Origin: Faecalibacterium sp. I3-3-33
GTDB taxonomy: Bacteria; Bacillota; Clostridia; Oscillospirales; Ruminococcaceae
Direction of reading: 5' to 3'
Length of the DNA stretch: 64,000 bases
NCBI RefSeq assembly: GCF_023347295.1
Contig: NZ_CP094469.1
Location: 496,001-560,000, forward strand
Of this stretch, positions 5,710 through 53,698 are shown piece after piece; within the stretch, counting starts at the first letter, position 1; the number at the start of each line of letters is the position of its first letter. The notes beneath the pieces were generated by a model. It was not told the DNA's origin and searched no databases. It saw only the letters and a list, made by a program, of their open reading frames with translations. The position numbers and the translations under genes are program-made.

Positions 5710-5989
5710 ACGATTGAAAATGGCCTCCGCGTGTGCTTTGGCCATGTTTCGAGGAGTTTGTTTTTTATCCGGGATTCTGAAAAGCCTGCGGGCTTTTCAG
5801 AATCCCTTTTTTACAAGTGGGGACGCAAGGGAAAACGACAGGATTCGTGGAAAGCGCCTGCTTACCGTTGCGGCTCTCTCCCGTGAAAAAGGTACACCGG
5901 AGCGTCCGCAGACGCTCCGGTGTACCAAAGATATAAAAGTGATTTCCGCTGAATATGGCCAGAGCGTAGCGGAGGCCACTCTAAATCGT
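5710..5989. repeat. Element E1, composite of two inverted units
   Basis: The left unit starts with acgatt (5710) and has arms atggcc/ggccat, then a 36-nt perfect hairpin at 5771-5806 (arm gggattctgaaaagcc, loop tgcg) and a T-run. The right unit is inverted: hairpin 5891-5926, then the interlocked arms tccgct 5945-5950, atggcc 5955-5960, agcgga 5968-5973, ggccac 5974-5979, ending at cgt. About 85 bases separate the two hairpins. The left A-type pair has decayed (tccgcg/cgagga). It fills the gap between two convergent genes. Confidence 0.85.
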
Positions 5990-5997
5990 ATTTACGC

Positions 5998-6035
5998 AAA
6001 AAGAGGACACCGCACGAATGCGGTGTCCTCTTTTT
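5998..6035. terminator. Bidirectional terminator behind nifU
   Basis: A 17-bp perfect stem (aaaaagaggacaccgca and its complement) with loop cgaa and T-runs on both strands, 22 bases from the nifU stop. Confidence 0.9.
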
Positions 6036-6056
6036 GCTTAGGACATATTGTCAGGA

Positions 6057-6500
6057 TCAGTGGCCGCAGCTCTCGCAGTGCTCGCAATCCTCTTCCAGCT
6101 TGCCCACGATGGGTTCCGGGTCGATGCCCTGACGGCGGTAGTAGTCGGACAGAGCGGCCTTGACAGCCTGCTCTGCCAGAACGGAGCAGTGCACCTTGAC
6201 CGGGGGCAGACCCTCCAGAGCCTCCACAACGGCCTTGTTGGTCAGCTTCAGTGCCTCGTCCACGGTCTTGCCCTTGATCAGGTCGGTGGCCATGCTGCTG
6301 GTGGCAATGGCTGCGCCGCAGCCAAAGGTGAGGAACTTAACGTCCACGATCACATTGTTCTCGATCTTCAGGTACATGCGCATGATGTCGCCGCACTTGG
6401 GGTTGCCCACTTCGCCCACGCCGTTTGCATCGGGCAGCTCACCTACGTTGTGCGGATTTGCGAAATGCTCCATGACCTTGGCACTATACATACTTGCCAT
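6057..6500 (-). CDS. nifU: NifU-like iron-sulfur scaffold protein
   Basis: A 147-residue U-type scaffold on which the desulfurase builds iron-sulfur clusters. The three conserved cysteines are in GNPKCGD, LTFGCGAAIATSS and KVHCSVLAE. A cysteine-rich tail (CEHCESC) is added, as in other clostridial versions. The start is the ATG at 6500 (MASMYSAK) with gggag in front; in-frame codons further upstream lie inside nifS. It begins 2 bases after the nifS stop, so the two are co-translated. Confidence 0.93.
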   Translation of the reverse strand: MASMYSAKVMEHFANPHNVGELPDANGVGEVGNPKCGDIMRMYLKIENNVIVDVKFLTFGCGAAIATSSMATDLIKGKTVDEALKLTNKAVVEALEGLPPVKVHCSVLAEQAVKAALSDYYRRQGIDPEPIVGKLEEDCEHCESCGH

Positions 6501-6502
6501 AA

Positions 6503-7720
6503 TTACTGTTCTCCCTTCAGGCTGAACTGGCGGGCCTTGTTCTGACCCTGCAGCCACATACAACTCATAGCGCGGCGGCGGGGAATGACCTCCTCCAGCA
6601 CGTCACACAGATATTTTGCTTCTTCCATGGTGTTCTGCGGGCCAAAGGTGAACCGCATGGAACCGTGGCCGATCTCCTCAGGCACGCCGATGCTCAGCAG
6701 GACGTGGCTGGGGTCCAGACTGTCGGAGTTGCAGGCAGAGCCGGTGGAGGCGCAGATGCCGTGCATATCCAGATCCAGCAGGATGGTCTCGCCCTCCAGA
6801 CCCGGGAAGCTGATGTTCACATTGTTGGGCAGACGGGGACTGCGGCCGCCGTTCAGGCGGGCTTCCGGGATGTTCTTGAGGATGCGGTCGATGACGTAAT
6901 CGCGCAGCTCGCTCTCGTGGGCCATGCGCTCATCCAGATGCGCCGTGGCGATCTCCAGTGCCTTGCCCATGGCAGCAATGCCGGCCACGTTCTCGGTGCC
7001 TGCACGGTGGCGGGCCTCCTGACTGCCGCCATCGATCAAGTTCTGGGGCCATACGCCCTTACGGCAGTACAGGGCACCCATGCCCTTGGGGCCATTGAAC
7101 TTGTGGGCGCTCATGGACAGCATATCCACGCCCAGCTCCTTCACATCCACGGGGATGGCACCCACAGCCTGCACGGCGTCGGTGTGCATCCAGACACCGT
7201 GCTTGTGAGCGACCTCGGCAATCTCCTTGATGGGCTGGATGGTGCCGATCTCGTTGTTGGCCATCATGATGCTGACCAGCGCGGTGTCGGGACGGATGGC
7301 AGCTTCCACATCCTCGGGGCGGATGTAGCCCTCGGCGGTGGGCTTGATATAGGTCACTTCAAAGCCCATGCGCTCCAGTGCAGCCATGCTGTGCATGATG
7401 GCATGATGCTCAAAAGCGCTGGTGATGAGGTGCTTTTTGTTCTGGCGTGCCTTGGTGAAGGCGGTGCCCTTTACGGCCCAGTTGTCGGCCTCGGAGCCGC
7501 AGCTGGTAAAGAAGAGCTCAGCCGGACTTGCATTGATGGCCTTTGCCACCTGCGCACGGCCGGTGTCCACGAATTCCTTGGCCTCGTAGCCCACACTGTA
7601 ATGGCTGCTGGGGTTGCCGCAGGCACCGCTCAGGGCTTTGACCATCATTTCCAGTGCCTCGGGAGCACAGGGAGTGGTGGCAGCATTATCCAGATAAACC
7701 ACTTTTTCCATGTTTTCCAT
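6503..7720 (-). CDS. nifS: Cysteine desulfurase NifS
   Basis: A PLP-dependent class V aminotransferase-fold enzyme that takes sulfur from cysteine for cluster assembly; 405 residues. Visible motifs: VYLDNAATTP at the N-terminus, the PLP lysine in SAHKFNGPKG, the substrate loop HRAGTENVAG, and the active cysteine in STGSACNSD. The C-terminus carries about 30 extra residues after the usual end (RRRAMSCMWLQGQNKARQF), with an additional cysteine. The start at 7720 has aaagga upstream. It is the first gene of the nifSU pair. Confidence 0.94.
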   Translation of the reverse strand: MENMEKVVYLDNAATTPCAPEALEMMVKALSGACGNPSSHYSVGYEAKEFVDTGRAQVAKAINASPAELFFTSCGSEADNWAVKGTAFTKARQNKKHLITSAFEHHAIMHSMAALERMGFEVTYIKPTAEGYIRPEDVEAAIRPDTALVSIMMANNEIGTIQPIKEIAEVAHKHGVWMHTDAVQAVGAIPVDVKELGVDMLSMSAHKFNGPKGMGALYCRKGVWPQNLIDGGSQEARHRAGTENVAGIAAMGKALEIATAHLDERMAHESELRDYVIDRILKNIPEARLNGGRSPRLPNNVNISFPGLEGETILLDLDMHGICASTGSACNSDSLDPSHVLLSIGVPEEIGHGSMRFTFGPQNTMEEAKYLCDVLEEVIPRRRAMSCMWLQGQNKARQFSLKGEQ

Positions 7721-7800
7721 AGGAATGATCCTTTCTTATTGAACGCGTCTGCGGGAGCCTTAAATGCCCTGTGCAGATGCGGAATCCTTTCAACGGATAA

Positions 7801-7830
7801 GTTATACCATATCATTCCCTAGTATGTCAA
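7801..7830 (-). promoter_or_regulatory. Promoter of nifSU
   Basis: On the minus strand TTGACA (7825-7830) and TATAAC (7801-7806) are 18 bases apart. The spacer and flanks contain an imperfect inverted repeat (ATAC near 7821, GTAT near 7804), a possible site for the IscR-like regulator encoded at 9060. The operator reading is a guess. Confidence 0.6.
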
Positions 7831-7853
7831 TATGAATACTGGATTTTCGTGAT

Positions 7854-8294
7854 TCAGTCACCTTTTTTGCCTTTTCCGGTCAGCTTGCCCAGCGCTACCT
7901 TCCACTTGGGGTAGCCCCAGCGCTTATCCTCGGCAAAGTCGTCCGCCAGCTTCCACGGGAAGATGCCGCCGTCAAAGTACAGGTTTCCGGCTTCGTCCAC
8001 CCGGTCCAGCTTTTTGGGCAGATAGCTTTCGTCGTAATAGCTCTTGCGGCGGTCCGGCAGTACCCAGTGCAGTGTGCCGTCCTCATCCATGCCGGACGCC
8101 CACACGCCGAACACAAAGGTGGCAGCCTCGCCATAGCAGTGCTGCTCAAAGCGGATAGCACCATCGTAGTAGAACTTGATGACCTCCAGCGTGCCGGATT
8201 CCTTTTTGCCGTCCCGACCCAAAGTAGGGCGGTAATCCTGCTGGTAACGGCAGCCGCAGTGGCTGCCCGCGAACTCTTTTGCATGGAACGACAT
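7854..8294 (-). CDS. Conserved hypothetical protein, 146 aa
   Basis: No family recognised. The protein is soluble, rich in aromatic and charged residues, with an early HCGC motif (SHCGCRY) and a lysine-rich end (GKLTGKGKKGD). Many W, Y and G residues suggest a compact beta-rich fold. A ribosome site (aaagga) precedes the ATG at 8294. It stands between nifSU and the rhodanese gene on the same strand, so a role in sulfur or redox metabolism is possible from context only. A 14-base palindrome, cttattataataag (8329-8342), lies upstream and contains a -10-like TATAAT. Confidence 0.6.
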   Translation of the reverse strand: MSFHAKEFAGSHCGCRYQQDYRPTLGRDGKKESGTLEVIKFYYDGAIRFEQHCYGEAATFVFGVWASGMDEDGTLHWVLPDRRKSYYDESYLPKKLDRVDEAGNLYFDGGIFPWKLADDFAEDKRWGYPKWKVALGKLTGKGKKGD

Positions 8295-8354
8295 GGCATG
8301 GTTTCCTTTCTGGTATGGGTTTGTGCTTCTTATTATAATAAGCGGCTTTTTAGG

Positions 8355-8601
8355 GGACGATTTAGAATATCCTCCGCTTCGCTCTGGATATTTTTAGCGG
8401 AATTAGATTTTTTATTTGAGCATCTGAAAAGCCTGCGGGCTTTTCAGATGCTCTTTTTCACGAGTGGAGGGCGCCGGTTTTCTAAGCCCCTTTTGTGAAA
8501 ATGCGTTTGGAGCGGCCCGCAGGCCGCGACAAACGCGAAATAAAAATAATTTTTCCGCTGTTTATGCCCAGAGCGTAAGCGGAGGGCATTTCAATGGTTT
8601 T
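8355..8601. repeat. Element E2, composite of two inverted units
   Basis: Left unit: ggacgattt at 8355, interlocked arms atatcc/ggatat and tccgct/agcgga, then a 36-nt hairpin at 8418-8453 (arm gagcatctgaaaagcc, loop tgcg) and ctttttcacgag. Right unit: 34-nt hairpin 8503-8536 with a tandem G.A mismatch, then tccgct 8554-8559, atgccc 8564-8569, agcgga 8578-8583, gggcat 8584-8589. The two units use different B arms (atatcc against atgccc), each perfectly paired. It abuts the stop of the rhodanese gene. Confidence 0.85.
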
Positions 8602-8603
8602 CC

Positions 8604-8927
8604 TTAAAAATGCCCCTCAAAATCGCCCTCGATCTCGTAGGGCCAGCTTAAAATGCCGCCAAGGTCCCGCAGGTTGGTGTAGCCAAGGCTTTCCAGCTTC
8701 TGCACGGCATCGGCGCTGCGGCGGCCGGTGCGGCAGTACACCAGCCACAGGGCGTTTTTGTCCGGCAGCACCTCGGCGGCACGGTCGATGACCTGACCCA
8801 GCGGCAGCAGCTTTGCCCCGGGGATATGCCCCACGGCATACTCGTCCGGCTCGCGCACATCCACGGCTACGGCCTTGCCGGAATCCAGCAGACGAATGGC
8901 GTCTGCGGCGGTGATCTTTTCTGTCAT
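8604..8927 (-). CDS. Rhodanese-like sulfurtransferase, single domain
   Basis: A 107-residue rhodanese. The domain runs nearly full length, with DVREPDEYAVGHIPGA and the active loop CRTGRRSADA, whose cysteine would carry the persulfide. Small single-domain forms move sulfane sulfur between proteins. The ATG at 8927 follows gagtgag. It is divergent from iscR with 132 bases between the starts, so it may share that regulator and serve cluster assembly. Confidence 0.9.
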   Translation of the reverse strand: MTEKITAADAIRLLDSGKAVAVDVREPDEYAVGHIPGAKLLPLGQVIDRAAEVLPDKNALWLVYCRTGRRSADAVQKLESLGYTNLRDLGGILSWPYEIEGDFEGHF

Positions 8928-8963
8928 ACTCTCACTCCTCAAAGATAGGTTCTGTTCCATCCT

Positions 8964-8992
8964 ATGATAACAGACCTTTTTTGTTTGCACAA
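8964..8992 (-). promoter_or_regulatory. Promoter of the rhodanese gene
   Basis: Minus-strand TTGTGC (8987-8992) and TATCAT (8964-8969) with a 17-base spacer. Confidence 0.5.
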
Positions 8993-9004
8993 GAGGTTTC
9001 TCCT

Positions 9005-9032
9005 TTGCAAAATCCGAGTAACGTGCTATACT
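9005..9032 (+). promoter_or_regulatory. Promoter of iscR
   Basis: TTGCAA (9005-9010) and TATACT (9027-9032) with a 16-base spacer, 28 bases before the start codon. It stands back to back with the rhodanese promoter. Confidence 0.6.
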
Positions 9033-9059
9033 ATAAACTGCAACAAGGAGAGGACTACC

Positions 9060-9530
9060 ATGAAATTTTCCACCAAGAGCCGCTACGCCCTGCGCCTGAT
9101 GGCGGAGCTGGCGCGCTATGCGCCGGGCACCACCGTCAGCCTGAAGGAGATCAGCGAGCGGCAGAACCTGAGCCTGAAATATCTGGAGCAGATCGTCACC
9201 CCGCTGGCGCGGGTGGGGCTGGTCAAGAGCGAGCGGGGCAGTCAGGGCGGCTACCGCCTGACAAAGGACCCCGCCGACTACACCGCCGGCGAGATCCTGC
9301 GCGCCATCGAGGGCAGCGTAGCGCCCATTCCGTGCCTTGGCAGCGTGACCAACGAGTGCCCCATGTCTGAGCAGTGCTTCACCCTGCCGTTCTGGGCCGG
9401 GCTGGACGAGGTGATCAACCAGTATATCGACAGCGTTACGCTGGAACAGCTGGCAAGCCAGCTGCCCGCACTGGATTCCACCGCGCAGGAGAGCTGCTGC
9501 AGCTGCGGCGGCACGAAAAATGAGAAATAA
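9060..9530 (+). CDS. iscR: Rrf2/IscR-family iron-sulfur regulator
   Basis: A 156-residue winged-helix regulator that senses iron-sulfur cluster supply. The N-terminus MKFSTKSRYALRLM and the wing (SERGSQGGYRL) are typical of Rrf2. Three cysteines that could hold a cluster lie in CLGSVTNECPMSEQC, spaced 7 and 5, close to the IscR pattern. The tail SCCSCGG adds more cysteines. The start is the ATG at 9060 with aaggagagg before it. Location beside a rhodanese and near nifSU supports a role in cluster assembly control; it could be a cysteine-metabolism regulator instead. Confidence 0.85.
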   Translation: MKFSTKSRYALRLMAELARYAPGTTVSLKEISERQNLSLKYLEQIVTPLARVGLVKSERGSQGGYRLTKDPADYTAGEILRAIEGSVAPIPCLGSVTNECPMSEQCFTLPFWAGLDEVINQYIDSVTLEQLASQLPALDSTAQESCCSCGGTKNEK

Positions 9531-9543
9531 GTAAAAATAAGGC

Positions 9544-9572
9544 TTGACATTCCCCTTTGCATCGGCTATAAT
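9544..9572 (+). promoter_or_regulatory. Promoter of tRNA-Trp
   Basis: A perfect TTGACA (9544-9549) and TATAAT (9567-9572) with a 17-base spacer. Confidence 0.85.
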
Positions 9573-9597
9573 AATCAAGCATTCAGCGAATGTATAT

Positions 9598-9673
9598 AGG
9601 GGTATAGCTCAGCTGGTAGAGCAGCGGTCTCCAAAACCGCGTGCCGTGAGTTCGAAACTTACTACCCCTGCCA
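9598..9673 (+). tRNA. tRNA-Trp (CCA)
   Basis: Acceptor arms aggggta and tacccct pair, discriminator G, encoded CCA at 9671-9673. The anticodon stem gcggt/accgc encloses ctCCAaa. The T arm holds gttcgaaac. Confidence 0.95.
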
Positions 9674-9675
9674 TG

Positions 9676-9713
9676 ACGCACAGGTTCTTCGGAACTTGTG
9701 CGTTTTGTTTTTT
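9676..9713 (+). terminator. Terminator of tRNA-Trp
   Basis: Stem acgcacaggttc with its complement gaacttgtgcgt, loop ttcg, then a T-rich run. Confidence 0.85.
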
Positions 9714-9715
9714 GA

Positions 9716-9905
9716 ACCCTCTCAGGCGCTCCCGCGCCAGCTCCCCCGAAGGGGGAGCCAAGCCGTAAAGTTTAGCGCTAAAGCATTAGGCGCAATGAGA
9801 AAGTTTTCGGCAGTGCTCTTGCCTCTCCCTTTGAGGAAAGACTTCCCCCGCCCCGAGGGAGCTGGCAAAACCGTCAGGTTTTGACTGAGGGAGTTCGTTC
9901 TAAAC
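9716..9905. repeat. Second repeat family R2, copy 1
   Basis: It starts with ccctctcaggcgctcccg and contains three nested palindromes: ggcgctcccgcgcc, gctcccccgaagggggagc, and a longer one around aaaaccgtcaggtttt. It ends with gagttcgttc and a cccct run. A clearly related copy is at 53415-53589. In both cases it joins directly to an inverted E-unit. No coding signal is seen. Confidence 0.8.
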
Positions 9906-10019
9906 CCCTCCCGTGAAAATGCGTTTGGAGCGCTCCGCAGAGCGCGACAAACGCGAAATTTAAAATAGTCTTTCCGCTGAATATGGCCAGAGCACAGCGG
10001 AGGCCATTTAAAATCGTCC
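9906..10019. repeat. Element E3, single inverted unit joined to R2
   Basis: Starts cccgtgaaaa, then a 34-nt hairpin at 9921-9954 with the same tandem G.A mismatch as E2. Then tccgct 9973-9978, atggcc 9983-9988, agcgga 9996-10001, ggccat 10002-10007, ending aaatcgtcc. There is no matching left unit; R2 takes its place. Confidence 0.85.
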
Positions 10020-10085
10020 CAGCTCCTCCAAACAGCCCACCTTTACCAGCTTTTGCAAAAAATTGCATTTTCCGCAAATTTGTGC

Positions 10086-10114
10086 TTGACAACAGACCGA
10101 CTTTCCGATATAAT
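10086..10114 (+). promoter_or_regulatory. Promoter of the tRNA-Asp/tRNA-Thr pair
   Basis: A perfect TTGACA (10086-10091) and TATAAT (10109-10114) with a 17-base spacer. Confidence 0.85.
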
Positions 10115-10160
10115 AGAGCACGTTCCCGCGGTAAGATGCCGCACGAACTTGAGCGATCAT

Positions 10161-10237
10161 GGCCCGGTAGCTCAGTTGGTTAGAGCACCAGCCTGTCACG
10201 CTGGGGGTCGTCGGTTCGAGCCCGATCCGGGTCGCCA
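10161..10237 (+). tRNA. tRNA-Asp (GTC)
   Basis: Acceptor arms ggcccgg and ccgggtc, discriminator G, encoded CCA at 10235-10237. The anticodon stem ccagc/gctgg encloses ctGTCac. Confidence 0.95.
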
Positions 10238-10240
10238 TTT

Positions 10241-10316
<76 letters not shown>

Positions 10317-10322
10317 AAGGCA

Positions 10323-10360
10323 AACACCTCGAAGTCTTTAAGACTTCGGGGTGTTTTTTT
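10323..10360 (+). terminator. Terminator of the tRNA pair
   Basis: Stem aacacctcgaagtc with gacttcggggtgtt, loop tttaa, then seven T. Confidence 0.9.
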
Positions 10361-10448
10361 GCGCTTTTTTCAGGGCAGAGGGGCTGTTGCATCCTACTGC
10401 TTGTGGAAACCGCCCAAAATAGAACGACTTTTTCTTCCGGTACGTCAA

Positions 10449-10483
10449 TTGAAGCCATCTCTAAGTTGTTATATAATTAACAT
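10449..10483 (+). promoter_or_regulatory. Alcohol dehydrogenase promoter with Rex-like operator
   Basis: TTGAAG (10449-10454) and TATAAT (10472-10477) are 17 bases apart. Over the -10 lies TTGTTATATAATTAACAT (10466-10483), which agrees with the known Rex pattern TTGTTAA-N4-TTAACAA at 12 of 14 fixed positions. Rex represses fermentation genes when NADH is low, which suits the gene downstream. A separate inverted repeat (acggcaca 10495-10502, tgtgccgt 10511-10518) sits in the leader. Confidence 0.7.
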
Positions 10484-10541
10484 AATAATGAACTACGGCA
10501 CAGCGCTGCGTGTGCCGTGATAATTTTGGAGGTTTTGTATT

Positions 10542-11759
10542 ATGGCTCGTTTTACTCTGCCCCGTGATCTGTACCATGGCAAGGGCGCTCTGGAAGCGCT
10601 GAAGTCCTTCACTGGCAAAAAGGCAATGATCTGTGTCGGCGGCGGCTCCATGAAGCGCTTCGGCTTTTTGGACCGTGCCGTTGAGTACCTGAAGGAAGCC
10701 GGCATGGAAGTGGAGCTGTTCGAGGGCATCGAACCCGATCCTTCCGTGGAGACCGTCATGCGCGGCGCCGAGGCCATGCTGAAGTTTGAGCCCGACTGGA
10801 TCATCGCCATGGGCGGCGGCTCTCCCATTGATGCTGCCAAGGCCATGTGGATCAAGTACGAGTACCCCGAGATCACCTTTGAGGAAATGTGCAAGGTGTT
10901 CGGCATCCCGCCGCTGCGCCGCAAGGCACACTTCTGCGCCATTTCCTCTACCTCCGGCACTGCTACCGAGGTGACCGCCTTCTCCATTATTACCGACTAC
11001 CAGAAGGGCATCAAGTACCCCATCGCGGACTTCGAGATCACCCCGGACGTGGCCATCGTAGACCCCGATCTGGCTGAGACTATGCCCAAGAAGCTGGTTG
11101 CCCACACCGGTATGGACGCCATGACCCACGCTGTGGAGGCTTATGTTTCCACCGCACACTGCGACTACACCGATCCGCTGGCCATTTTTGCCATCCGTAT
11201 GATCCAGGGTGATCTGGTGGACAGCTACAATGGCGATATGTCCAAGCGCGACTCCATGCACAACGCCCAGTGCCTTGCCGGTATGGCCTTCTCCAACGCT
11301 CTGCTGGGCATCGTGCACTCCATGGCACACAAGACCGGCGCTGCCTTTGCAGACTACGGCGCACACATCATCCACGGCGCGGCCAACGCCATGTACCTGC
11401 CCAAGGTCATCGCCTTCAACGCCAAGGACCCCGAGGCCAAGAAGCGCTACGGCGTCATCGCAGACGAGATGAAGCTGGGCGGCGCAAACGATGACGAGAA
11501 GGTCAAGCTGCTCATCGAGTACCTGCGCGGCATGAACGACGCGCTGAACATCCCCCACTGCATCCAGCACTACGGCCCGGACTCCTACCCCACTGAGCAG
11601 GGCTTTGTGCCGGAGAATGTGTTCCTGGAGCGTCTGCCCGAGATCGCCAAGAACGCCATCGCCGACGCCTGCACCGGCTCCAATCCCCGCCAGCCCAGTC
11701 AGGAGGAGATGGAGAAGCTGCTCAAGTGCTGCTACTACGACACCGAGGTGGATTTCTGA
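10542..11759 (+). CDS. Iron-containing (group III) alcohol dehydrogenase
   Basis: A 405-residue cytoplasmic NAD(P)H-dependent dehydrogenase that would reduce an aldehyde to an alcohol. The cofactor motif is IAMGGGSPIDAAKAM (about residue 89 onward), followed by STSGTATEVTAFS. Metal ligands are expected in IVDPDLA (Asp), HAVEAYVS (His), GIVHSMAHKTG (His) and HIIHGAANA (His). Length and order fit the butanol/1,3-propanediol dehydrogenase group. Start at 10542 after ggagg. It is monocistronic, with a Rex-like operator in front and a strong terminator behind, so it probably reoxidises NADH during fermentation. The exact substrate cannot be told. Confidence 0.92.
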   Translation: MARFTLPRDLYHGKGALEALKSFTGKKAMICVGGGSMKRFGFLDRAVEYLKEAGMEVELFEGIEPDPSVETVMRGAEAMLKFEPDWIIAMGGGSPIDAAKAMWIKYEYPEITFEEMCKVFGIPPLRRKAHFCAISSTSGTATEVTAFSIITDYQKGIKYPIADFEITPDVAIVDPDLAETMPKKLVAHTGMDAMTHAVEAYVSTAHCDYTDPLAIFAIRMIQGDLVDSYNGDMSKRDSMHNAQCLAGMAFSNALLGIVHSMAHKTGAAFADYGAHIIHGAANAMYLPKVIAFNAKDPEAKKRYGVIADEMKLGGANDDEKVKLLIEYLRGMNDALNIPHCIQHYGPDSYPTEQGFVPENVFLERLPEIAKNAIADACTGSNPRQPSQEEMEKLLKCCYYDTEVDF

Positions 11760-11793
11760 TTCGTCCTTTCTTCGTTACACCTCCCCTAGCGCC

Positions 11794-11830
11794 AAAAGCC
11801 CCGCAGAGCACAACGCCCTGCGGGGCTTTT
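11794..11830 (+). terminator. Terminator of the alcohol dehydrogenase gene
   Basis: Stem aaaagccccgcag with its exact complement ctgcggggctttt. Confidence 0.9.
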
Positions 11831-11842
11831 GCTGATTATGCT

Positions 11843-12078
11843 GGACGATTTGAAATGCCCGCCGCGTGCGCTTTGGGCATATTCAGCGGAAAAATTATTT
11901 TTAATAGAGCAATGCCGGAGCGTCTGCGGACGCTCCGGCATTGCATTTTCACGGGATTGAGACCCCAGCTGTGAAAAAGGGGTTCAGAAACGCCCGCAGG
12001 CGTTTCTGAACCCCCAATTCTAAATTATAATTCCTTGAACTATGGCCAGAGCAGCGCGGAGGCCATTTAAAATGGTCC
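11843..12078. repeat. Element E4, composite of two inverted units
   Basis: Left unit: ggacgatt at 11843, atgccc 11855-11860 paired with gggcat 11875-11880, agcgga 11885-11890, then a 36-nt hairpin at 11909-11944 (arm gcaatgccggagcgtc, loop tgcg) and ttttcacggg. Right unit: 36-nt hairpin 11979-12014 (perfect, arms quite unlike the left one), atggcc 12042-12047, ggccat 12061-12066, end ggtcc. The right A pair is decayed. It lies between convergent genes. Confidence 0.87.
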
Positions 12079-12095
12079 TCCCGCAGCGGCAGACG

Positions 12096-13493
12096 TTACA
12101 GCTTGCTCAGCTGGGGACCCTGTGCGGTATCCTTGACAGCCCAGCCCAGTTCGGTCAGCTGTGCGCGGATGGCGTCGGCAGTGGCCCAGTCCTTGGCCTT
12201 CTTGGCGGCAGCGCGCTTCTCTACCAGCGCGGTCACCTCGGCGGGCACCTCGTCCTTCTTGCGGTTGTACAGCAGACCCAGCACGCCGGTGATCTCGTCA
12301 AAGGCGGCGGCAGCAGTCTCCAGTGCAGCCTTGCTGGAAGCAGCAGACAGGGTGTTGATCTCCTTGACCAGATCGAACACGGCAGCCAGCGCATCCGGGG
12401 TGTTCAGGTCGTCGTCCATGGCGGTGCAGAACTTGGTGCGTGCCTCGGCGGCCTTTTCCTTCAGGGTCTCGTCGGTGTCGAAGTCAGTCTTGCTCAGGGC
12501 AAAGTCCAGATTCTCGCGGCAGGTGTACAGGCGCTCCAGACTGTTCTTGCAGCTCTCGATGAGGTCCACAGTGTAGTTCAGGGGCATCCGGTAGCCGGCG
12601 GTCAGCATGAAGTAGCGGATGGGCTCGTAGCCGTAGAGGTTTGCCACATCCCGCACGGTAAAGAAGTTGTGCAGGCTCTTGGACATTTTCTGGTTGTCCA
12701 CGTTGATGAAACCGTTGTGCATCCAGTAGCGGGCAAACTCACAGCCGTTGGCGCACTCGCTCTGGGCAATTTCGTTTTCGTGGTGGGGGAAGATCAGATC
12801 CTGACCGCCGCAGTGCAGGTCGATGGTCTTGCCCAGATGGGTGCGGCTCATGGCGCTGCACTCGATGTGCCAGCCCGGGCGGCCCATGCCGTAGGGGCTT
12901 TCCCATGCGGGCTCACCGGGCTTTGCAGCCTTCCAGACGGCAAAGTCGGCGGGGTCCTCCTTCAGGTCGTCCTCCATGCGGCTGCGCAGCTCGCGGTTGC
13001 CGCTTTCCAGATCGTCCAGATTCAGGTGACTCAGCTTGCCGTAGCCGGGGTCGCTCTTCACCCGGAAGTACACATCGCCGTTTTTGGCAACGTAGGCGTG
13101 GCCGGAGTCGATCAGGTCTTTGACGATATCCAAAATCTGGGGGATATGCTCGGTAGCGCGGGGCTGCACGGTGGGCTTTTCGCAGTTCAGACCGGCGGCA
13201 TCCTTCAGGTACTCGGCCTCAAAGCGCTGTGCCACCTCCTTCATGGAGGTGCCCTCTTCCTGTCCCTTCTTGATGAGCTTATCGTCGATATCGGTGATGT
13301 TGGAAACGTAGATCACCTTGTTGCCCCGGTATTCCAGATAACGGCGCAGGGTGTCGAACACGATCAGCGGGCGTGCGTTGCCGATGTGGATATAGTTGTA
13401 CACGGTAGGGCCGCAGACGTAGATGCGGTACTCGCCGGGCACCTGCGGCACAAATTCTTCCTTCTGTCGGGTCAGGGTGTTGAAGATCTGCAT
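12096..13493 (-). CDS. cysS: Cysteinyl-tRNA synthetase
   Basis: Class I aminoacyl-tRNA synthetase, 465 residues, that charges tRNA-Cys. Visible: zinc/cysteine-binding CGPTVYNYIHIGNARP containing the HIGH-type motif, the GWHIECSAM segment with zinc ligands, HHENEIAQSE, and KMSKSLHN (KMSKS loop). The start is the ATG at 13493 with aaggag before it; upstream in-frame codons belong to the leader. A T-box leader precedes it, so expression should rise when uncharged tRNA-Cys accumulates. Confidence 0.96.
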   Translation of the reverse strand: MQIFNTLTRQKEEFVPQVPGEYRIYVCGPTVYNYIHIGNARPLIVFDTLRRYLEYRGNKVIYVSNITDIDDKLIKKGQEEGTSMKEVAQRFEAEYLKDAAGLNCEKPTVQPRATEHIPQILDIVKDLIDSGHAYVAKNGDVYFRVKSDPGYGKLSHLNLDDLESGNRELRSRMEDDLKEDPADFAVWKAAKPGEPAWESPYGMGRPGWHIECSAMSRTHLGKTIDLHCGGQDLIFPHHENEIAQSECANGCEFARYWMHNGFINVDNQKMSKSLHNFFTVRDVANLYGYEPIRYFMLTAGYRMPLNYTVDLIESCKNSLERLYTCRENLDFALSKTDFDTDETLKEKAAEARTKFCTAMDDDLNTPDALAAVFDLVKEINTLSAASSKAALETAAAAFDEITGVLGLLYNRKKDEVPAEVTALVEKRAAAKKAKDWATADAIRAQLTELGWAVKDTAQGPQLSKL

Positions 13494-13533
13494 GGTCAAT
13501 TCTCCTTTTTGTTCCAAACAGAAGCCGCAAAAC

Positions 13534-13796
13534 AAAACGCCCCCGGAGCGGTGCACAAGGCACAGCTCTGAAGGCGGTTTTAAAATCAAAATCGCGGTTC
13601 CACTTCTGTTTGTCGCTCAAAGCCGGTAACGGCGGCGCACCGCACGGCGATACTTCCCCACGGGGTTCCCGCCGCGTGCTGTCCGGGCGCACTTTGCGCG
13701 GCGGTCTGCAAACAGGCTTCCAGCCAGTGGCCTGTTCTCTCTGCGCAGACGGTATGCGGCGCTACTCTGCCCGGATAAACGCATTTATCCTTTTAC
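13534..13796 (-). promoter_or_regulatory. T-box leader of cysS
   Basis: The minus strand contains the T-box core TGGAACCGCG (13593-13602). It is followed by a terminator stem between 13534 and 13581 with a T-rich run, then the cysS ribosome site. Upstream is a large stem region (about 13620-13790) in which a TGC triplet after aagcctgtt could be the specifier for cysteine. The leader runs from a clear promoter to the gene, about 300 bases. Confidence 0.82.
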
Positions 13797-13802
13797 CCCT
13801 TT

Positions 13803-13831
13803 ATTATAGCGGTGCAGCGCAGGGAAGTCAA
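13803..13831 (-). promoter_or_regulatory. Promoter of the cysS leader
   Basis: Minus-strand TTGACT (13826-13831) and TATAAT (13803-13808), 17-base spacer. Element E5 starts only 14 bases upstream. Confidence 0.8.
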
Positions 13832-13844
13832 GGTACAACGAAGA

Positions 13845-14056
13845 ACGATTCAGAATGCCCGCCGCGTTGCTTTGGGCATCCTCAGCGGAAGAATTATTCT
13901 GAATTTCGGGATATCGGAACGCCTGCGGGCGTTCCGATATCCCATTTTTACCCGTGAAAAGGGCCCCCGGAGCGTCCGCAGACGCTCCGGGGGCCGAAAT
14001 TATAAATCTTCTTTCCGCTGAAATTGCGCAGAGCGAAGCGGAGCGCAATCAAAACG
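13845..14056. repeat. Element E5, most compact composite
   Basis: Left unit: acgatt, atgccc 13855-13860/gggcat 13874-13879, agcgga 13884-13889, 36-nt hairpin 13908-13943 (perfect, arm gggatatcggaacgcc). Right unit: hairpin 13961-13996 (outermost pair mismatched), tccgct 14014-14019, attgcgc 14023-14029, agcgga 14037-14042, gcgcaat 14043-14049. Only 17 bases separate the two hairpins. The right B arm (attgcgc) differs from every other copy yet pairs over 7 bp. Confidence 0.87.
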
Positions 14057-14064
14057 GTGGTGCT

Positions 14065-14817
14065 TTACCCGGGATACCGGTTCACTTCCAGCAGTTCTTC
14101 TGCCCGCTTTACCTGCTCTGCGGTGGGCGGTACAGCGTCCGGCAGGGGGTAGGGAATGCCCAGCTTCTGCCACTTGAACAGTCCCAAGGTGTGGTAGGGC
14201 AGCACCTCCACCCGCTGCACCGTTTTCAGGCTGCGGATGAAGTCTGCTGTTTTGCGCAGCCCCTCCTCGTCGTCGGTCAGCCCGGGTACAAGGACGTGCC
14301 GGATCCACAGCGGGATGCCGAGGTCGGAGATGTGCCGCGCCATGGCAAGGATGTTGGCGTTGTCTTTGCCGGTGAGCTGCCGGTGGCGCTCCGGGTCGAT
14401 CTCCTTGAGGTCAAGGATCACCAGACTGGTGTTAGCCATCAGGCGGTCGAACGCCGCCAGATACGCCGGGTCGTCCGGGCGGAAGGGCTGACCGGCGGTG
14501 TCCAGCGCTGTGTGCACGCCCTTGGCGCGCGCCAGCGTGAAGAACTCGGTCAAAAAGTCCATCTGCCGCAGCGGCTCACCGCCGCTCACCGTGATGCCGC
14601 CCTTTTTGCCCCAGTAGTTGCGGTAGCGGTATACCCGCTGGAACAGCGCTTCCGCCGTCCACTCCTCGCCGCCCTCTGCCCATGTTTCGGGGTTGTGGCA
14701 GTACTTGCACCGCAGGGCACACCCCTGCAAAAACACCACAAAGCGCACGCCGGGCCCGTCCACCGAGCCGAAGGATTCCAGCGAGTGGACGTACCCAAGG
14801 GTCTTACAGGACGCCAT
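14065..14817 (-). CDS. pflA: Pyruvate formate-lyase activating enzyme
   Basis: Radical SAM enzyme, 250 residues, that makes the glycyl radical on PflB. The cluster motif is [11 protein letters not shown] (CxxxCxxC) near residue 33, followed by SAM-binding GGEPL. The N-terminus [19 protein letters not shown] is typical of PflA. Its start lies 14 bases inside the end of pflB, so the two are translationally coupled. The short distance and order pflB-pflA are usual in Clostridia. Confidence 0.95.
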
Positions 14818-17056
14818 GGCAGGTACGGGCCAGCACGTCCAGCTGCTGCTCGCGGGTCAGGTCGATGAACTTGACGGCGTAGCCGGAAACGCGGATGGTG
14901 AAGTTGGCGTACTCTTCCTTCTCGGGGTGCTCCATAGCGTCCAGCAGCTTCTCCTTGCCAAAGACGTTCACGTTCAGGTGGTGTGCGCCCTGATCGAAGT
15001 AGCCGTCCAGCACCTGCACCAGATTCTCCACGCGCTCGCCCTCGCTGTGACCCAGTGCCTCGGGGTTGATGGTCTGGGTGTTGGAGATGCCGTCCAGTGC
15101 CCAGTGGTAGGGCAGCTTTGCTACGGAGTTCAGCGAGGCCAGCAGACCGTTCTGCTCTGCGCCGTAGCTGGGGGTAGCGCCGGGGGCAAACGGGGTAAAG
15201 GCGGCGCGGCCATCCGGCAGAGCGCCGGTGTACTTGCCGTACACCACGTTGGAGGTGATGGTCAGGATGGAGGTGGTAGCCTCGGAGTTGCGGTAGGTGT
15301 GGCGCTTCTTGATCATCTCAAGGAAGGTCTTGAGCAGCCACACGCCGATCTCGTCGGCGCGGTCGTCATCGTTGCCGTACTTGGGGAAGTCGCCCTCGAT
15401 CTCAAAGCCGGTGGCAAGGCCGTTTTCATCGCGCACCACCTTCACCTTGGCGTACTTGATGGCGCTCAGGGAGTCGATGACATGGGAGAAGCCTGCAATG
15501 CCGGTGGCAAAGGTGCGGCGCACATCGGTGTCGATGAGTGCCATCTCGGCTTCCTCGTAGTAGTACTTGTCGTGCATATACTGGATGAGGTTCAGCACGT
15601 TGACGTACAGCCCGGCCAGCCAGTCCAGCATCTGCACATACTTGGGCAGCACCTCGTCATAGGTCAGGTACTCGCTGGTGATGGGAGCGTAGTTGGGGCC
15701 GCACTGCTCGTGGCTCTTCTCGTCCACGCCGCCGTTGATGGCGTACAGCAGGCACTTGGCAAGGTTGGCGCGTGCGCCGAAGAACTGCATCTCCTTGCCG
15801 GTCTGGGTGGCAGACACGCAGCAGCAGATGGAGTAATCGTCGCCCCAGACGGGCTTCATCACGTCATCGTTCTCGTACTGGACGCTGCTGGTGTTGACGG
15901 ACACCTTGGCGGCGTACTTCTTAAAGGCCTCAGGCAGGGCAGAGGAGTACAGCACGGTCAGGTTGGGCTCTGGTGCGGGGCCCATGTTTTCCAGCGTGTG
16001 CAGGAAGCGGTAGCAGTTCTTGGTGACCATGCTGCGGCCGTCCATGCCGATGCCGCCCACTTCCAGCGTTGCCCACACGGGGTCACCGGAGAACAGCTGG
16101 TTGTAGCTGGGAATGCGGGCAAACTTGACCATGCGGAACTTCATGACCATGTGGTCAATGAGCTCCTGTGCCTGACTTTCGGTCAGGATGCCCTTGTCCA
16201 GATCGCGCTGGATATAGATATCCAGGAAGGTGGAGATGCGGCCCACGCTCATGGCGGCGCCGTTCTGGGTCTTGATGGCAGCCAGATAGCCGAAGTACAG
16301 CCACTGGCAGGCCTCCTTGGCGTCCTTGGCGGGCTGGGAGATGTCGTAGCCGTAGGCCTCGGCCATCTTCTTCATGCCCTTCAGGGCGCTGATCTGGCGG
16401 GCGATCTCCTCGCGCAGACGGATGACGTCATCGGTCATGGTGCCGTCGCCGCAGTTGGCAAGATCCTCCTGCTTGAACTGGATCAGGGCGTCGATGCCGT
16501 ACAGGGCAACGCGGCGGTAGTCGCCCACGATGCGGCCGCGGCCGTAGGTGTCCGGCAGACCGGTGATGATGTGGGTGTGGCGTGCCTTCTTCATCTCGGG
16601 GGTGTAGGCATCGAACACGGCCTGATTGTGGGTGCGGGTGTAGTCGGTAAAGATCTTGTGCAGCTCGGCAGAGGGCTGGTAGCCGTAGGTGGTGCAGGCC
16701 TGCTCTGCCATCTTGATGCCGCCGTAGGGCATAAAGGCGCGCTTGAGGGGCTTGTCGGTCTGCAAACCAACGATCTGCTCCAGATCCTTCAGGTTTTCGT
16801 CAATATAGCCGGGGCCGTAGGAGGTCAGGCTGCTGACCACCTCGGTCTCCATATCCAGCACGCCGCCCTTGGCGCGCTCGGCCTTCTGCAGCTGCTGCAA
16901 AGCACCCCAAAGCTTATCGGTAGCCTCGGTGGGGCCAGCCAGAAAGCTTTCGTCGCCGTTATAGGGGGTGTAGTTTTTCTGGATGAAGTCACGCACATTG
17001 ACCTCTTCCTTCCAGATGCGGCCTTCAAAGCCTTCCCACTGTTCAAACTGGATCAT
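14804..17056 (-). CDS. pflB: Pyruvate formate-lyase (formate C-acetyltransferase)
   Basis: Glycyl radical enzyme, 750 residues, converting pyruvate and CoA to acetyl-CoA and formate. The active cysteines lie in [12 protein letters not shown] near residue 410. The radical glycine is in RVSGYAVKF near the C-terminus. A long conserved N-terminal domain begins at [10 protein letters not shown]. The start at 17056 follows aggagg. Together with pflA it forms an operon whose leader is about 170 bases long. Confidence 0.97.
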
Positions 17057-19282: not shown

Positions 19283-19327
19283 AAAAAACAATGCCGGGCA
19301 GCGTGCGGCTGGCCGGCATTGTTTTTT
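19283..19327. terminator. Terminator behind the GT4 gene, resembling an E-type hairpin
   Basis: Arms aaaaaacaatgccgg and its complement; the apex contains gtgcgg. The basal arm caatgccgg equals that of the E4 left hairpin and the copy at 29147. It is preceded by cccgtaaaaa, close to the cccgtgaaaa that flanks E hairpins, so it may be a domesticated unit. Confidence 0.75.
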
Positions 19328-29140: not shown

Positions 29141-29222
29141 ATAAGAGCAATGCCGGGCAGCCTGCGGGCTGTCCGGCATTGCATTTTCACAGGAGAGGGC
29201 GCGGAGGATATTTTAAATCGTT
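29141..29222. repeat. Element E6, truncated unit
   Basis: A 36-nt hairpin at 29147-29182 (arm gcaatgccgggcagcc, loop tgcg, one G.T) is followed by ttttcacaggag. Then comes the outer end of an inverted unit (ggaggatattttaaatcgt) with no second hairpin. This looks like an internal deletion of a composite. Confidence 0.75.
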
Positions 29223-30156: not shown

Positions 30157-30208
30157 GAATCGTTTGGATTTCGGGGCACAGAACCGTCTGCGGGCGTTTC
30201 TGTACCCC
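30157..30208. repeat. Eroded E-type remnant
   Basis: aatcgtttggattt resembles an outer end. It is followed by a 36-nt imperfect hairpin (30173-30208, ggggcacagaa/tttctgtacccc, apex ctgcgg) and a short T-run. The interlocked arms are gone. It lies between two co-directional genes. Confidence 0.6.
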
Positions 30209-37763: not shown

Positions 37764-37775
37764 GCGTGCAGAACC

Positions 37776-37888
37776 CCGTGAAAAGGCAATTCTGGAAAAT
37801 CGGCAGATTTTCCGGAATTGCGAATAAAAAATAATTTTTCCACGGAATATGGCTGGAGCGCACGCGGAAGCTATTTTAAAATGTTCCT
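37776..37888. repeat. Element E7, single inverted unit
   Basis: ccccgtgaaaa, 36-nt hairpin 37786-37821 (arm gcaattctggaaaatc, loop ggca), then tccacg 37839-37844, atggct 37849-37854, cgcgga 37863-37868, agctat 37869-37874. Its hairpin is nearly identical to the one at 53598-53633. The pairs here need G.T wobbles, so it is drifting. Nothing else is seen between 37889 and the next ribosome site. Confidence 0.8.
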
Positions 37889-45533: not shown

Positions 45534-45543
45534 ACTGTAAACC

Positions 45544-45580: not shown

Positions 45581-45587
45581 TATGAAA

Positions 45588-45900
45588 ATGATTGAGAATG
45601 CCCTCCGCTTGCGCTTTGGGCATCTTCAGCGGAATAATTATTTTTAATTTCGCGTTTGTCGCGCTCTGCGGAGCGCTCCAAACGCTTTTTTCACAGGAGG
45701 GGCCGAGAAGGCAAACGGTAACGCACTCCGCAGCGCCGCGCTTCCGAAGGAAGCGGCGCTGCAAATGCAGTTTACCATTACGACCCTTCTCGTGAAAATG
45801 GCAGAACGGAACGCCCGCAGGCGTTCCGTTCTGCCGAAATCTAAAATAAATTTTCCTTAAATCATGCCCAGAGCAACGCGGAGGGCATTTTAAATCGTCC
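45588..45900. repeat. Element E8, composite with a nested palindrome
   Basis: Left unit: tgatt, atgccc 45598-45603, tccgct 45604-45609, gggcat 45618-45623, agcgga 45628-45633, 34-nt hairpin 45652-45685, T-run. Middle (45704-45792): a further inverted structure with arms cgagaagg/ccttctcg, ggtaa/ttacc and an inner stem gcagcgcc/ggcgctgc. Right unit: 36-nt hairpin 45800-45835 (arm ggcagaacggaacgcc), atgccc 45864-45869, gggcat 45883-45888, end aaatcgtcc. The right A pair is decayed. It lies between convergent genes. Confidence 0.85.
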
Positions 45901-45910
45901 GCTCTCCCGT

Positions 45911-48099: not shown

Positions 48100-48110
48100 G
48101 GGAACTGATT

Positions 48111-49653: not shown

Positions 49654-49688
49654 AAAATACCGCCGCACAGCAGTGCGGCGGTATTTTT
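49653..49688. terminator. Terminator of the sigma operon
   Basis: Stem aaaaataccgccgca/tgcggcggtattttt, loop cagcag. Confidence 0.88.
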
Positions 49689-49713
49689 GCAGTGCGGCTG
49701 AAAGGATAAACGA

Positions 49714-49748
49714 AAAACGCCCCGAAGTCCTAAGACTTCAGGGCGTTT
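49714..49748 (-). terminator. Terminator of tRNA-Thr copy 2
   Basis: Minus-strand stem aaacgccctgaagtc/acttcggggcgttt with T-run; clearly homologous to the terminator after copy 1. Confidence 0.88.
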
Positions 49749-49752
49749 AAGC

Positions 49753-49828
<76 letters not shown>

Positions 49829-49844
49829 ACATCACAGCTCGATT

Positions 49845-49873
49845 AGTATAGCACAGCTTTGCGGGTTTTGCAA
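49845..49873 (-). promoter_or_regulatory. Promoter of tRNA-Thr copy 2
   Basis: Minus-strand TTGCAA (49868-49873) and TATACT (49845-49850), 17-base spacer. Confidence 0.7.
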
Positions 49874-49909
49874 GCGTTTTTTGCAAAAAATAATATTTTT
49901 GCGCAAAAA

Positions 49910-49939
49910 TCCCCGGAGCATCCGTAGACGCTCCGGGGA
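49910..49939 (-). terminator. Terminator of the secreted-protein gene, E-like hairpin
   Basis: Stem ccccggagc/gctccgggg with apex atccgtagac, close to the gagcgtc class of E hairpins. A minus-strand T-run follows. No other E features remain. Confidence 0.75.
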
Positions 49940-49953
49940 CTCTGGAAATGCGT

Positions 49954-50622: not shown

Positions 50623-50748
50623 AAGTCAGTACTCCTTTCCATTTTCGAAGGGGATGATGCTGGTTTCAGTATACCGCAGCACGGCGGAAAAGCAAGAAAA
50701 CTGTCACGAAACGCCCTGACGCTGTCACGAAACGACTTTCGCTTGTCT

Positions 50749-52443: not shown

Positions 52444-52607
52444 GGAAAATTTCCTTTCCGGGGCAGTTTCCCCTTTGGTATCTTGTGTTCATCTTACCAC
52501 GTTCTGCGCCAAAAGAAAAGAGGGAGACAGGCGGGCAAAAGTCCTACGTTTATACAACACTGCCAAAAATAAAAACGCTCCTTTGGCAAAGATGTCCGTT
52601 TAAGCGC

Positions 52608-52636
52608 TTGCAGTGCAGCAAAAAAAGGATTATAAT
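52608..52636 (+). promoter_or_regulatory. Promoter of the folT leader
   Basis: TTGCAG (52608-52613) and TATAAT (52631-52636), 17-base spacer. Transcription would start near 52643, just before the riboswitch. Confidence 0.8.
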
Positions 52637-52644
52637 GGCATCAT

Positions 52645-52740
52645 CAACAGAGTAAGACCCTGCGCGTTAAGTGCCGCATCAACGGGGAGTTGTGCTGCGG
52701 ACGAAGGTATTGACCGCGGTGCAGGGTCTGCATCCCGCTG
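52645..52740 (+). promoter_or_regulatory. Tetrahydrofolate (THF) riboswitch
   Basis: The leader contains the folT-type signature GCGTTAAGTG (52664-52673), an ACGGGGAGTTGT loop region, GGACGAAGG and CCGCGGTG, closed by gaccctgc/gcagggtc (52656-52663 and 52721-52728). This order matches the THF riboswitch class. The expression platform is the terminator at 52810. Confidence 0.88.
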
Positions 52741-52809
52741 CTGCATGGACTTGGGTGCAGGCGAGAGCCGTCTGCGGTTTTTGCCCGGAAGTGAATGTTG
52801 TTGGAATTC

Positions 52810-52852
52810 ACGCCCTCCTTTGTGCGGTCTGTCACAGGGGAGGGCGTTTTTG
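52810..52852 (+). terminator. Terminator of the THF riboswitch platform
   Basis: Stem acgccctcc/ggagggcgt with five T, 40 bases before the folT start. It would stop transcription when folate is bound. Confidence 0.82.
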
Positions 52853-52891
52853 CGTCCTGCCTGCTGTTCCTTTTTAAGGAGGACAACTATA

Positions 52892-53404
52892 ATGAACGAC
52901 AAAAAAACTTCGGTGCGTACCCTGACCATGCTGGCCCTGCTGATAGCCATGAGCATCGTGTTCAGCCGGGTGCTCAGCATCTCCACCGGCTTCGTCCGGT
53001 TCAATCTGGGCAGTCTGCCGGTGCTGCTGGCGGCGGTGGTGTTCGGCCCCGGCGCAGGCTTTGCGGTGGGTGCAGTGGCCGATATCATCGGCGGTGTGCT
53101 GGCGGGCTACGCCATCAACCCGCTCATCACGCTGGGTGCGGGTGCCATCGGCTTGGTGGCAGGTTTTGCGTGGCAGAAGCTGAACAGCCTTTCCACAAAT
53201 TTGCGGCTTGCAGCCAGCGTGCTGCTGGGGCATTTTGTGGGCTCTATGGTCATCACCTCGCTGGCGCTGCGGCTGTTCTACGGCTACCCGTGGGCAACGC
53301 TGGCAGTGCGCATCCCCAACGCCCTCATTCTGAGCGCCGTGAACGTTGTGCTGCTGCGCATCCTGCTGGAAAACCGCAGCCTGATGAAGCTGGCAAAGAA
53401 GTAA
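52892..53404 (+). CDS. folT: Folate ECF transporter S component
   Basis: A 170-residue membrane protein with about six spans that captures folate and works with an ECF energy module encoded elsewhere. Conserved parts: RTLTMLALLIAMSIVFSRV at the start, FNLGSLPVLLAAVVFGPGAG and GAVADIIGG. The ATG at 52892 follows aaggagg. The THF riboswitch in front supports the assignment strongly. Confidence 0.92.
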   Translation: MNDKKTSVRTLTMLALLIAMSIVFSRVLSISTGFVRFNLGSLPVLLAAVVFGPGAGFAVGAVADIIGGVLAGYAINPLITLGAGAIGLVAGFAWQKLNSLSTNLRLAASVLLGHFVGSMVITSLALRLFYGYPWATLAVRIPNALILSAVNVVLLRILLENRSLMKLAKK

Positions 53405-53414
53405 GCTGTGAAAA

Positions 53415-53589
53415 CCCTCTCAGGCGCTCCCGCGCCAGTTCTCCCAAAGGGAGAGCCAAGCCGTAAGGCTCGTTGCTAAAGCTTTATGTGCAATGAGAAA
53501 CTTTCCCACCATGCCAAAGGCTCCCTCCCCGAGGGAGCTGTCAAAACCGTCAGGTTTTGACTGAGGGAGTTCGTTCCCAAACCCCTACC
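53415..53589. repeat. Second repeat family R2, copy 2
   Basis: Matches copy 1 (9716-9905) at both ends: ccctctcaggcgctcccg at the start, aaaaccgtcaggtttt and gactgagggagttcgttc near the end. The middle is more diverged but keeps the palindromes (gttctcccaaagggagagc). It follows the folT stop by 10 bases. Confidence 0.8.
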
Positions 53590-53698
53590 GTGAAAAGGCA
53601 ATTCTGGAAAATCCGCAGATTTTCCAGAATTGCGAAATTATAAATAATTTTTCCGCTATTTATGCGCAGAGCAAAGCGGAGCGCATTCCAAATCGTGA
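53590..53698. repeat. Element E9, single inverted unit joined to R2
   Basis: cgtgaaaa, perfect 36-nt hairpin 53598-53633 (arm gcaattctggaaaatc), then tccgct 53652-53657, atgcgc 53662-53667, agcgga 53675-53680, gcgcat 53681-53686, end aaatcgtg. The B arms atgcgc/gcgcat form another compensated pair. Confidence 0.85.

Follow-up and report, generated by a model that had tools for sequence, protein, structure and literature searches.

What are the short, hairpin-bearing sequences that recur between the genes of Faecalibacterium sp. I3-3-33? The window, the stretch of DNA analysed here, is 64,000 nucleotides (nt) long and spans positions 496001 to 560000 of contig NZ_CP094469.1. An original prediction had listed nine intergenic sites in it with related, terminator-like units, and had proposed a miniature inverted-repeat transposable element (MITE) or a relative of the REP/BIME repeats. 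We consider it probable that the units are copies of an undescribed composite repeat family of one Faecalibacterium clade. This family would be a MITE- or SPRITE-like terminator repeat that is remodelled by recombination between its caps, by conversion and by deletion.

The units belong to a high-copy repeat family

Thirteen good units at eight sites, plus fragments, were found in the window. A 21-base end pattern, allowing up to three mismatches, matched the window 12 times against 1.6 expected, and none of 100 shuffled sequences reached 12. We aligned the 13 units in one orientation (alignment A1) and built from them the covariance model R1, so recovery of these 13 is built in. Such a scan had been proposed with the prediction, and it bore the family out: the whole source genome (G000, a single contig of 2,994,777 bases; other G numbers denote same-genus comparison genomes) gave at least 150 matches at E ≤ 0.01. 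The end pattern occurs in it at 131 places, 57 forward and 74 reverse, and the GC content of the units is mostly 0.40 to 0.55.

R1 matches across 31 Faecalibacterium genomes numbered 71 to at least 121 in eight genomes, one in two genomes, and none in the remaining 21. The single copies are a composite in G016 (locus L106) and a unit after a TGA codon in G003 (L107). They show that the family predates the high-copy clade or has moved. No genus besides Faecalibacterium had R1 matches among 298 genomes sampled from 115 genera of the bacterial family, a scan with stricter filters that scored 12 candidates per genome. The one variant of the cap pattern that was searched occurred in 38 stretches of GTDB genomes, and all 38 are from Faecalibacterium. 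The family is real and more abundant than the window had suggested.

Architecture of the unit

From its outer end inwards, a unit consists of an ACGATT end, a cap (ATGCCC-TCCGC-loop-GGGCAT), AGCGGAA, an A/T linker, a 36-nt hairpin with the loop TGCG, and TTTTCACGGGAGGG. The tail after the hairpin reads TTTTCAC, and the consensus around the hairpin is TTTGGG...CCATTTTCAC. Eight of the nine predicted sites hold one or two units that match R1. The ninth, at 29141 (E6), is a hairpin fused to an isolated end and has no R1 match at E ≤ 0.001. Three remnants had also been predicted. The one at 19283 is a hairpin and those at 30157 and 49910 were seen by eye; none is an R1 match, and all three are possible remnants only. 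The sites in the window are as follows; each row given as a unit is in A1 and is an R1 match.

5710-5821, plus strand: unit E1a, with cap, 36-nt hairpin at 5771-5806 and TTTTTTAC tail
5876-5989, minus strand: unit E1b, hairpin at 5891-5926
8357-8468, plus strand: unit E2a, hairpin at 8418-8453
8488-8598, minus strand: unit E2b, with a GCGTTTG-class hairpin
9906-10017, minus strand: single unit E3, its inner side fused to a second repeat, GAGGGAGTTCGTTC (also from the sequence)
11845-11959, plus strand: unit E4a, lying between the convergent genes for Fe-ADH and CysRS
11964-12076, minus strand: unit E4b
13845-13958, plus strand: unit E5a, its outer end adjoining a promoter-like site (13831-13803, minus strand) upstream of cysS
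13947-14058, minus strand: unit E5b, its outer end 7 nt from the end of a radical-SAM gene (14065)
19283-19327, no strand assigned: possible hairpin remnant, without cap or R1 match (hairpin scan)
29147-29221, no strand assigned: E6, a hairpin (29147-29182) fused to an isolated 21-base end (29201-29221) (hairpin and end-pattern scans)
37771-37884, minus strand: single unit E7, with a diverged cap
45588-45701, plus strand: unit E8a
45702-45784, no strand assigned: centre of E8, with its own palindrome GCAGCGCCGC...GCGGCGCTGC (from the sequence)
45785-45898, minus strand: unit E8b
53583-53696, minus strand: single unit E9

The inverted ends at E1 have 24-nt arms that are 83% complementary. The cap contains a covarying helix of 6 base pairs (bp). 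In the 13 window units, 98.7% of its cells are paired, with two-sided changes in five of six pairs. In 132 genome units (alignment A2, fitted to the model), 97.5% are paired and all six pairs show two-sided changes. Misaligned columns spoiled the structure counts of the main hairpin in A2, and just the cap helix was used from that alignment. In A1, the cap helix and hairpin together have 17 pairs with two-sided changes, and none of 500 shuffles had as many. The observed number of further pair types was reached by 7 of 500 shuffles, and the structure outscored every slid version. The second cap helix (TCCGC with GCGGA), which makes the "interlocked" repeats of the original prediction, showed no two-sided change in A1, and therefore we do not claim a pseudoknot.

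The hairpin had been described as nearly always 36 nt long. With the loop fixed at 4 nt, the best stem is 16 bp (36 nt) in 100 of 146 extracted genome copies and 15 bp in another 25. Stems of at least 14 bp are present in 136 copies, 105 of them without a mismatch. These 136 stems comprise 88 distinct 15-base sequences, many with CGTC beside the loop. The prediction had overlooked the main feature: stem sequence varies from copy to copy, and between genomes at orthologous sites, yet the arms mostly stay matched. In a GCGTTTG class of 22 hairpins, a two-base mismatch recurs in most members. The best stems of the 114 hairpins outside this class hold 19 non-Watson-Crick pairs (A-C 8, G-T 7, other 4).

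The strong covariation in the cap helix and hairpin would also suit an RNA element, such as a structured 3' untranslated region or a riboswitch-like sequence, under selection at the transcript level. A looser scan of all fetched genomes leaned towards RNA, with 43 G-U against 28 A-C and 56 other non-pairing changes, although it forced stem lengths and took in stem ends and hairpins outside the family. The best stems of the 114 hairpins, on the other hand, have no clear excess of G-U. These counts give no strong sign of RNA-only selection on the stems, though some may act. No Rfam family overlaps a unit at gathering score, and below it the best overlap over E1 to E5 is AaHKsRNA41 on E4a, at 26.7 bits against a cut-off of 97. 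An RNA element is quite unlikely. A known RNA family was rejected, as none lies over the units in the window at gathering score or in the sub-threshold scan of 5700-14100.

Units mostly point their outer ends at the ends of genes

We grouped the G000 units above 60 bits into 107 sites: 88 single units, 18 inverted pairs and 1 tandem. The inverted pairing predicted for some window sites is found genome-wide. It is tail to tail in 18 of 18 pairs, and the composites measure 214 to 379 bp. In the window, E4 and E8 both lie between convergent genes.

The coding strand was judged by a codon-usage score trained on 13 window genes. Of 125 outer ends, 88 could be judged: 72 have a gene directed at the unit and 16 a gene directed away from it, as expected of a terminator. 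On the tail side, 28 of 89 could be judged, with 26 genes running towards the unit and 2 away. Of 122 units above 65 bits, 66 had enough fetched flank for a test of stop codons. Among these 66, an in-frame stop (closing a frame of at least 100 codons) is no more than 60 nt from the outer end in 40, versus 7 at a shifted control position, for which the frame length was set at 80 codons. In 26 of the 122 units, four or more consecutive T end 7 to 8 nt ahead of the outer end, which gives a sharp peak, and the base before the outer end is a purine in 90%. The units had been predicted to lie beside gene ends. Most do, but not all: the outer end of E9, at 53696, lies shortly before an ATG at 53720.

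In form, each unit is an intrinsic terminator serving whichever gene runs into its outer end, and it probably acts as one. A complete copy would be two inverted units joined tail to tail, each with an end and cap, an A/T linker, a 16-bp hairpin and TTTTCAC. Such a composite would stop transcription from both sides.

The position after genes and the terminator-like form also fit plain host terminators that have come to look alike through selection or chance and do not form a mobile family. We regard this as highly improbable. The cap, linker and end are conserved beyond the hairpin and T-tract, copies are present or absent between relatives, and 23 of the 31 genus genomes hold none or one copy.

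Turnover and block replacement at orthologous sites

Among relatives, a site may have the repeat present, absent, shortened, or with another hairpin at the same boundary. An identical sequence at every gap, without variation between strains, was not observed. The comparison of orthologous gaps that had been proposed gave presence and absence at E8 and E2. Genomes G029 and G014 are about 90 to 98% identical to the window over most blocks, and lower in some. The E8 composite is missing from G014, which lacks 45584-45906 (the composite plus 4 and 8 flanking nt), and there the rnfB-side terminator runs directly into the birA-side end; G029 retains E8. E2 is whole in G000 and G009, partial in G012 and G030, and absent in G029, G014, G027 and G028. 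In both G029 and G014, E1 is a shortened unit with another hairpin between the same flanks, and E6 keeps its outer edge in a fuller unit with other hairpins. At E9, G029 has the same boundary, a similar cap and another hairpin, and G014 has a cap-less hairpin alone.

We compared 13 loop-proximal stem bases between G000 and G029 at the 42 of 123 sites for which both flanks were in the fetched G029 stretches; the flanks are 91 to 100% identical. The stems were the same at 9 sites, within 1 bp at 3 and different at 12, and none was detected at 18. The filter overlooks truncated extractions, hairpins that have an insert in the loop and some that have mismatches, and at least five of these 18 sites (16, 28, 80, 91 and 95) do hold a G029 unit; the unit at site 91 is nearly identical in the two genomes. 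Other sites of this class keep a cap (3 and 83) or some other hairpin (19) in G029. The filter missed the G000 stem at site 88, which does differ, and compared one of two units at site 84. Parts of units are replaced as blocks: site 20 combines a nearly unchanged cap with another hairpin, and sites 21 and 22 combine the same hairpin with another cap.

Both arms of the hairpin changed together between orthologues at sites 16, 17, 92 and E8b, in one case from A:T to C:G. The matched arms are compatible with strong selection for pairing, with conversion by other copies and with arm-templated repair. We rank conversion first because the stems come from recurring classes.

Inversion between caps

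One composite has been inverted between genomes. At E8, G027 and G028 share the outer flanks and ends, and the interior is reverse-complemented, apart from a loop insert and scattered differences. Both orientations of E8 are therefore seen between genomes, in this one clear case. From the polymorphisms, the crossover falls in the cap, and within AATGCCCTCCGC if the ancestral loop was as in G000. Site 80 is a partial second case: G000 and G029 share the left outer cap, and the G029 hairpin behind it equals the right-hand hairpin of G000.

In G027 and G028, the E8 composite is flanked on either side by a copy (about 20 nt) of the 3' arm and T-tract of the rnfB-side terminator; G030 has a single copy. 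This near-repeat is a possible long target duplication, at one locus only.

The caps may be recombination sites and the 16-bp hairpins breakage sites, with the host's hairpin nuclease SbcCD cutting the hairpin, repair copying another of the roughly 150 dispersed hairpins, and cap recombination flipping the composites. The available text of PMC3733652 gives 8 to 16 bp as the stem limit for SbcCD. SbcD scored above cut-off in all eight high-copy carriers and in 11 of the 23 other genomes, a distribution that is compatible with hairpin cleavage and is no evidence for it. We hold this route to be unlikely. If true, the genome would carry a set of terminators whose hairpins are continually shuffled, each still matched to itself.

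Mobility and the weighing of alternatives

The reading we prefer, in which cap recombination, conversion and deletion reshape a terminator repeat, has several observations against it, which we gather here. Target-site duplication, predicted as a thing to look for at the gaps, was not general: in 18 pairs the longest string shared by the two flanks averaged 5.33 versus 5.29 in mixed pairs. No mobilising enzyme was identified for the repeat. The U-tract of the predicted terminator (TTTTCAC) is short, and a consensus terminator scan of 5000-15000 called 4 of 9 units terminator-like, with a total of 14 calls against 11.3 from shuffles. Some site differences may have arisen when the two halves of an older composite were deleted independently, and not by exchange. 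Arm matching is not absolute, because single-arm mismatches between orthologues (about eight) outnumber the four paired changes; they include two at site 97 and one each at E7, at E8b in G009 and, in G029, at E1, E4 and site 33, with others elsewhere. The paired change at site 17 may belong to a block replacement, as the cap changed too.

An ordinary MITE of a DDE transposase would have been spread by an insertion sequence with the same inverted ends, since lost or never found, and would then have decayed neutrally. The inverted ends, the presence and absence of copies and the amplification in part of the genus are in keeping with it. However, the 18 pairs lack a target duplication, and different perfect hairpins at one site are not what neutral decay would produce. 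No transposase lies between the matching ends of the two long pairs examined (193361-195630 and 1912654-1915368), which enclose open reading frames that we read as a dicarboxylate symporter and a Na/Pi cotransporter, both putative. This origin seems doubtful to us. An autonomous element in the two long pairs was also rejected, as the enclosed genes look ordinary.

A REP/BIME (REPIN) family mobilised by a RAYT transposase that has since been lost in some carriers would account for inverted doublets, mostly extragenic, in more than 100 copies. REP subfamilies with alternative paired stem residues are reported in the available text of PMC3733652, and the Y1 transposase domain (PF01797) has at least one match in 6 of 8 high-copy carriers versus 5 of 23 other genomes. 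This excess keeps a lost RAYT-like helper possible. However, Y1 has no match in G000 or G028, both single-contig carriers, and the GTAG/CGTC tag is absent from the foot of the consensus hairpin; the CGTC of many stems sits beside the loop. A RAYT-driven family is very unlikely, and we rejected REP/RAYT membership on the two single-contig carriers although Y1 is commoner in carriers. The original prediction had advised a search for a Y1/RAYT or other transposase with matching ends; none was seen between the ends of the two long pairs examined, and Y1 had no match in G000. The REP half of its proposal is disfavoured; the MITE half is supported by the inverted ends, the size of the composites, the presence and absence of copies and their amplification.

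Two further candidates were tried and rejected. The reverse transcriptase domain RVT_1 (PF00078) has no match in carriers G000, G012 and G014, which argues against spread by reverse transcriptase. Phage or viral origin was rejected because the exact 25-base linker pattern is absent from viral_contigs, a narrow test.

We suggest that an enzyme not found here may carry copies to positions immediately after stop codons or after the T-tracts of host terminators. Recombination between inverted caps would then flip the interior, and conversion, with other copies as donors, would exchange the hairpin or the cap helix in one block. Units would be shortened or interrupted by deletion or by other small elements, and mutated arms would tend to be restored to match.

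Other elements in and around the units

An element of about 92 bp (AGCTTGTCGGGGC...GCAAACGCG) lies in the loop of a family hairpin in 13 of 13 contexts, within fetched loci that are mostly around units. Its places include site 95 in G029 (G000 2497049), G000 756340, 816891 and 2652708, E8 in G028 and E2 in G012. Site 95 has the same hairpin with and without it. The element or a piece of it is in at least 6 of the 146 extracted G000 copies.

Eight of these 146 copies have their cap split by an element of about 118 bp (TTCCGGGTTGCGG...GGTCGTCGTCGTTGC), at G000 10433, 213344, 741965, 2364776, 2497049, 2602736, 2782779 and 2843445. The element is also in G014 at E7 and in G030 at E2. Related sequence lies beyond rnfB in G013, a genome without R1 matches.

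E3 and E9 are each fused on the inner side to a second dispersed repeat (GAGGGAGCTGTCAAAACC...GACTGAGGGAGTTCGTTC), at 9690-9905 and 53390-53580, and so are several single units elsewhere. The window also has a T-box leader before cysS (13567-13788, minus strand; 68 bits, below the Rfam gathering score of 93, E 1.7e-13) and a THF riboswitch (52646-52742, plus strand; 87.7 bits).

Relation to known repeats

The prediction knew of no published name for the repeat, and in the literature searched, which left most subscription journals outside, we found no description of it. The nearest published kind found, in form and place, is SPRITE of Streptococcus pneumoniae. The available text of PMC3049150 describes an 18-bp duplex with a U-rich tract, enriched at the 3' ends of convergent genes, that nests with other small repeats; it has 30 copies, a GC content of 28% and AAAA/TTTT ends. 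By this description both are dispersed intergenic repeats with a hairpin and T-tract at 3' gene ends. The Faecalibacterium repeat differs in its at least 150 copies, higher GC, covarying cap helix, tail-to-tail pairs, and stems that vary between copies.

REP/BIME/REPIN elements are, in the accessible portions of PMC3116915 and PMC3733652, extragenic, high-copy inverted doublets of palindromes, with stem subfamilies that carry complementary changes. Our repeat resembles these portraits in its inverted doublets (18 of 107 sites), extragenic position, high copy number and stem subfamilies. It differs in the lack of a Y1 match in G000 and of the tag at the foot, and in its 16-bp stems, nearly constant loop and T-tract tail. 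BOX and RUP of S. pneumoniae, as far as the available text of PMC3049150 goes, occur in few related species and both make target-site duplications, and BOX is a modular composite. The Faecalibacterium repeat shares the modular composite form of BOX and the narrow species range, but not target-site duplication as a rule.

Two other systems are similar in part, and the kind itself is known. What we would call new here is that a terminator repeat of MITE-like form has hairpins that are exchanged and are mostly self-matched. In invertible DNA segments, the interior flips between inverted repeats; the flip is the likeness, but the repeat offers one clear case, between genomes, with no recombinase tied to it. 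The double-hairpin elements of fungal mitochondria have paired hairpins whose stems change and whose shape is conserved.

Eight related genomes each carry 71 to at least 150 copies, and this makes it directly testable how hairpin arms come to match. The same site can hold different perfect palindromes in relatives whose flanks are 91 to 100% identical. The repeats lie behind many genes in a common human gut genus, and they bear on where its transcripts end and on strain typing.

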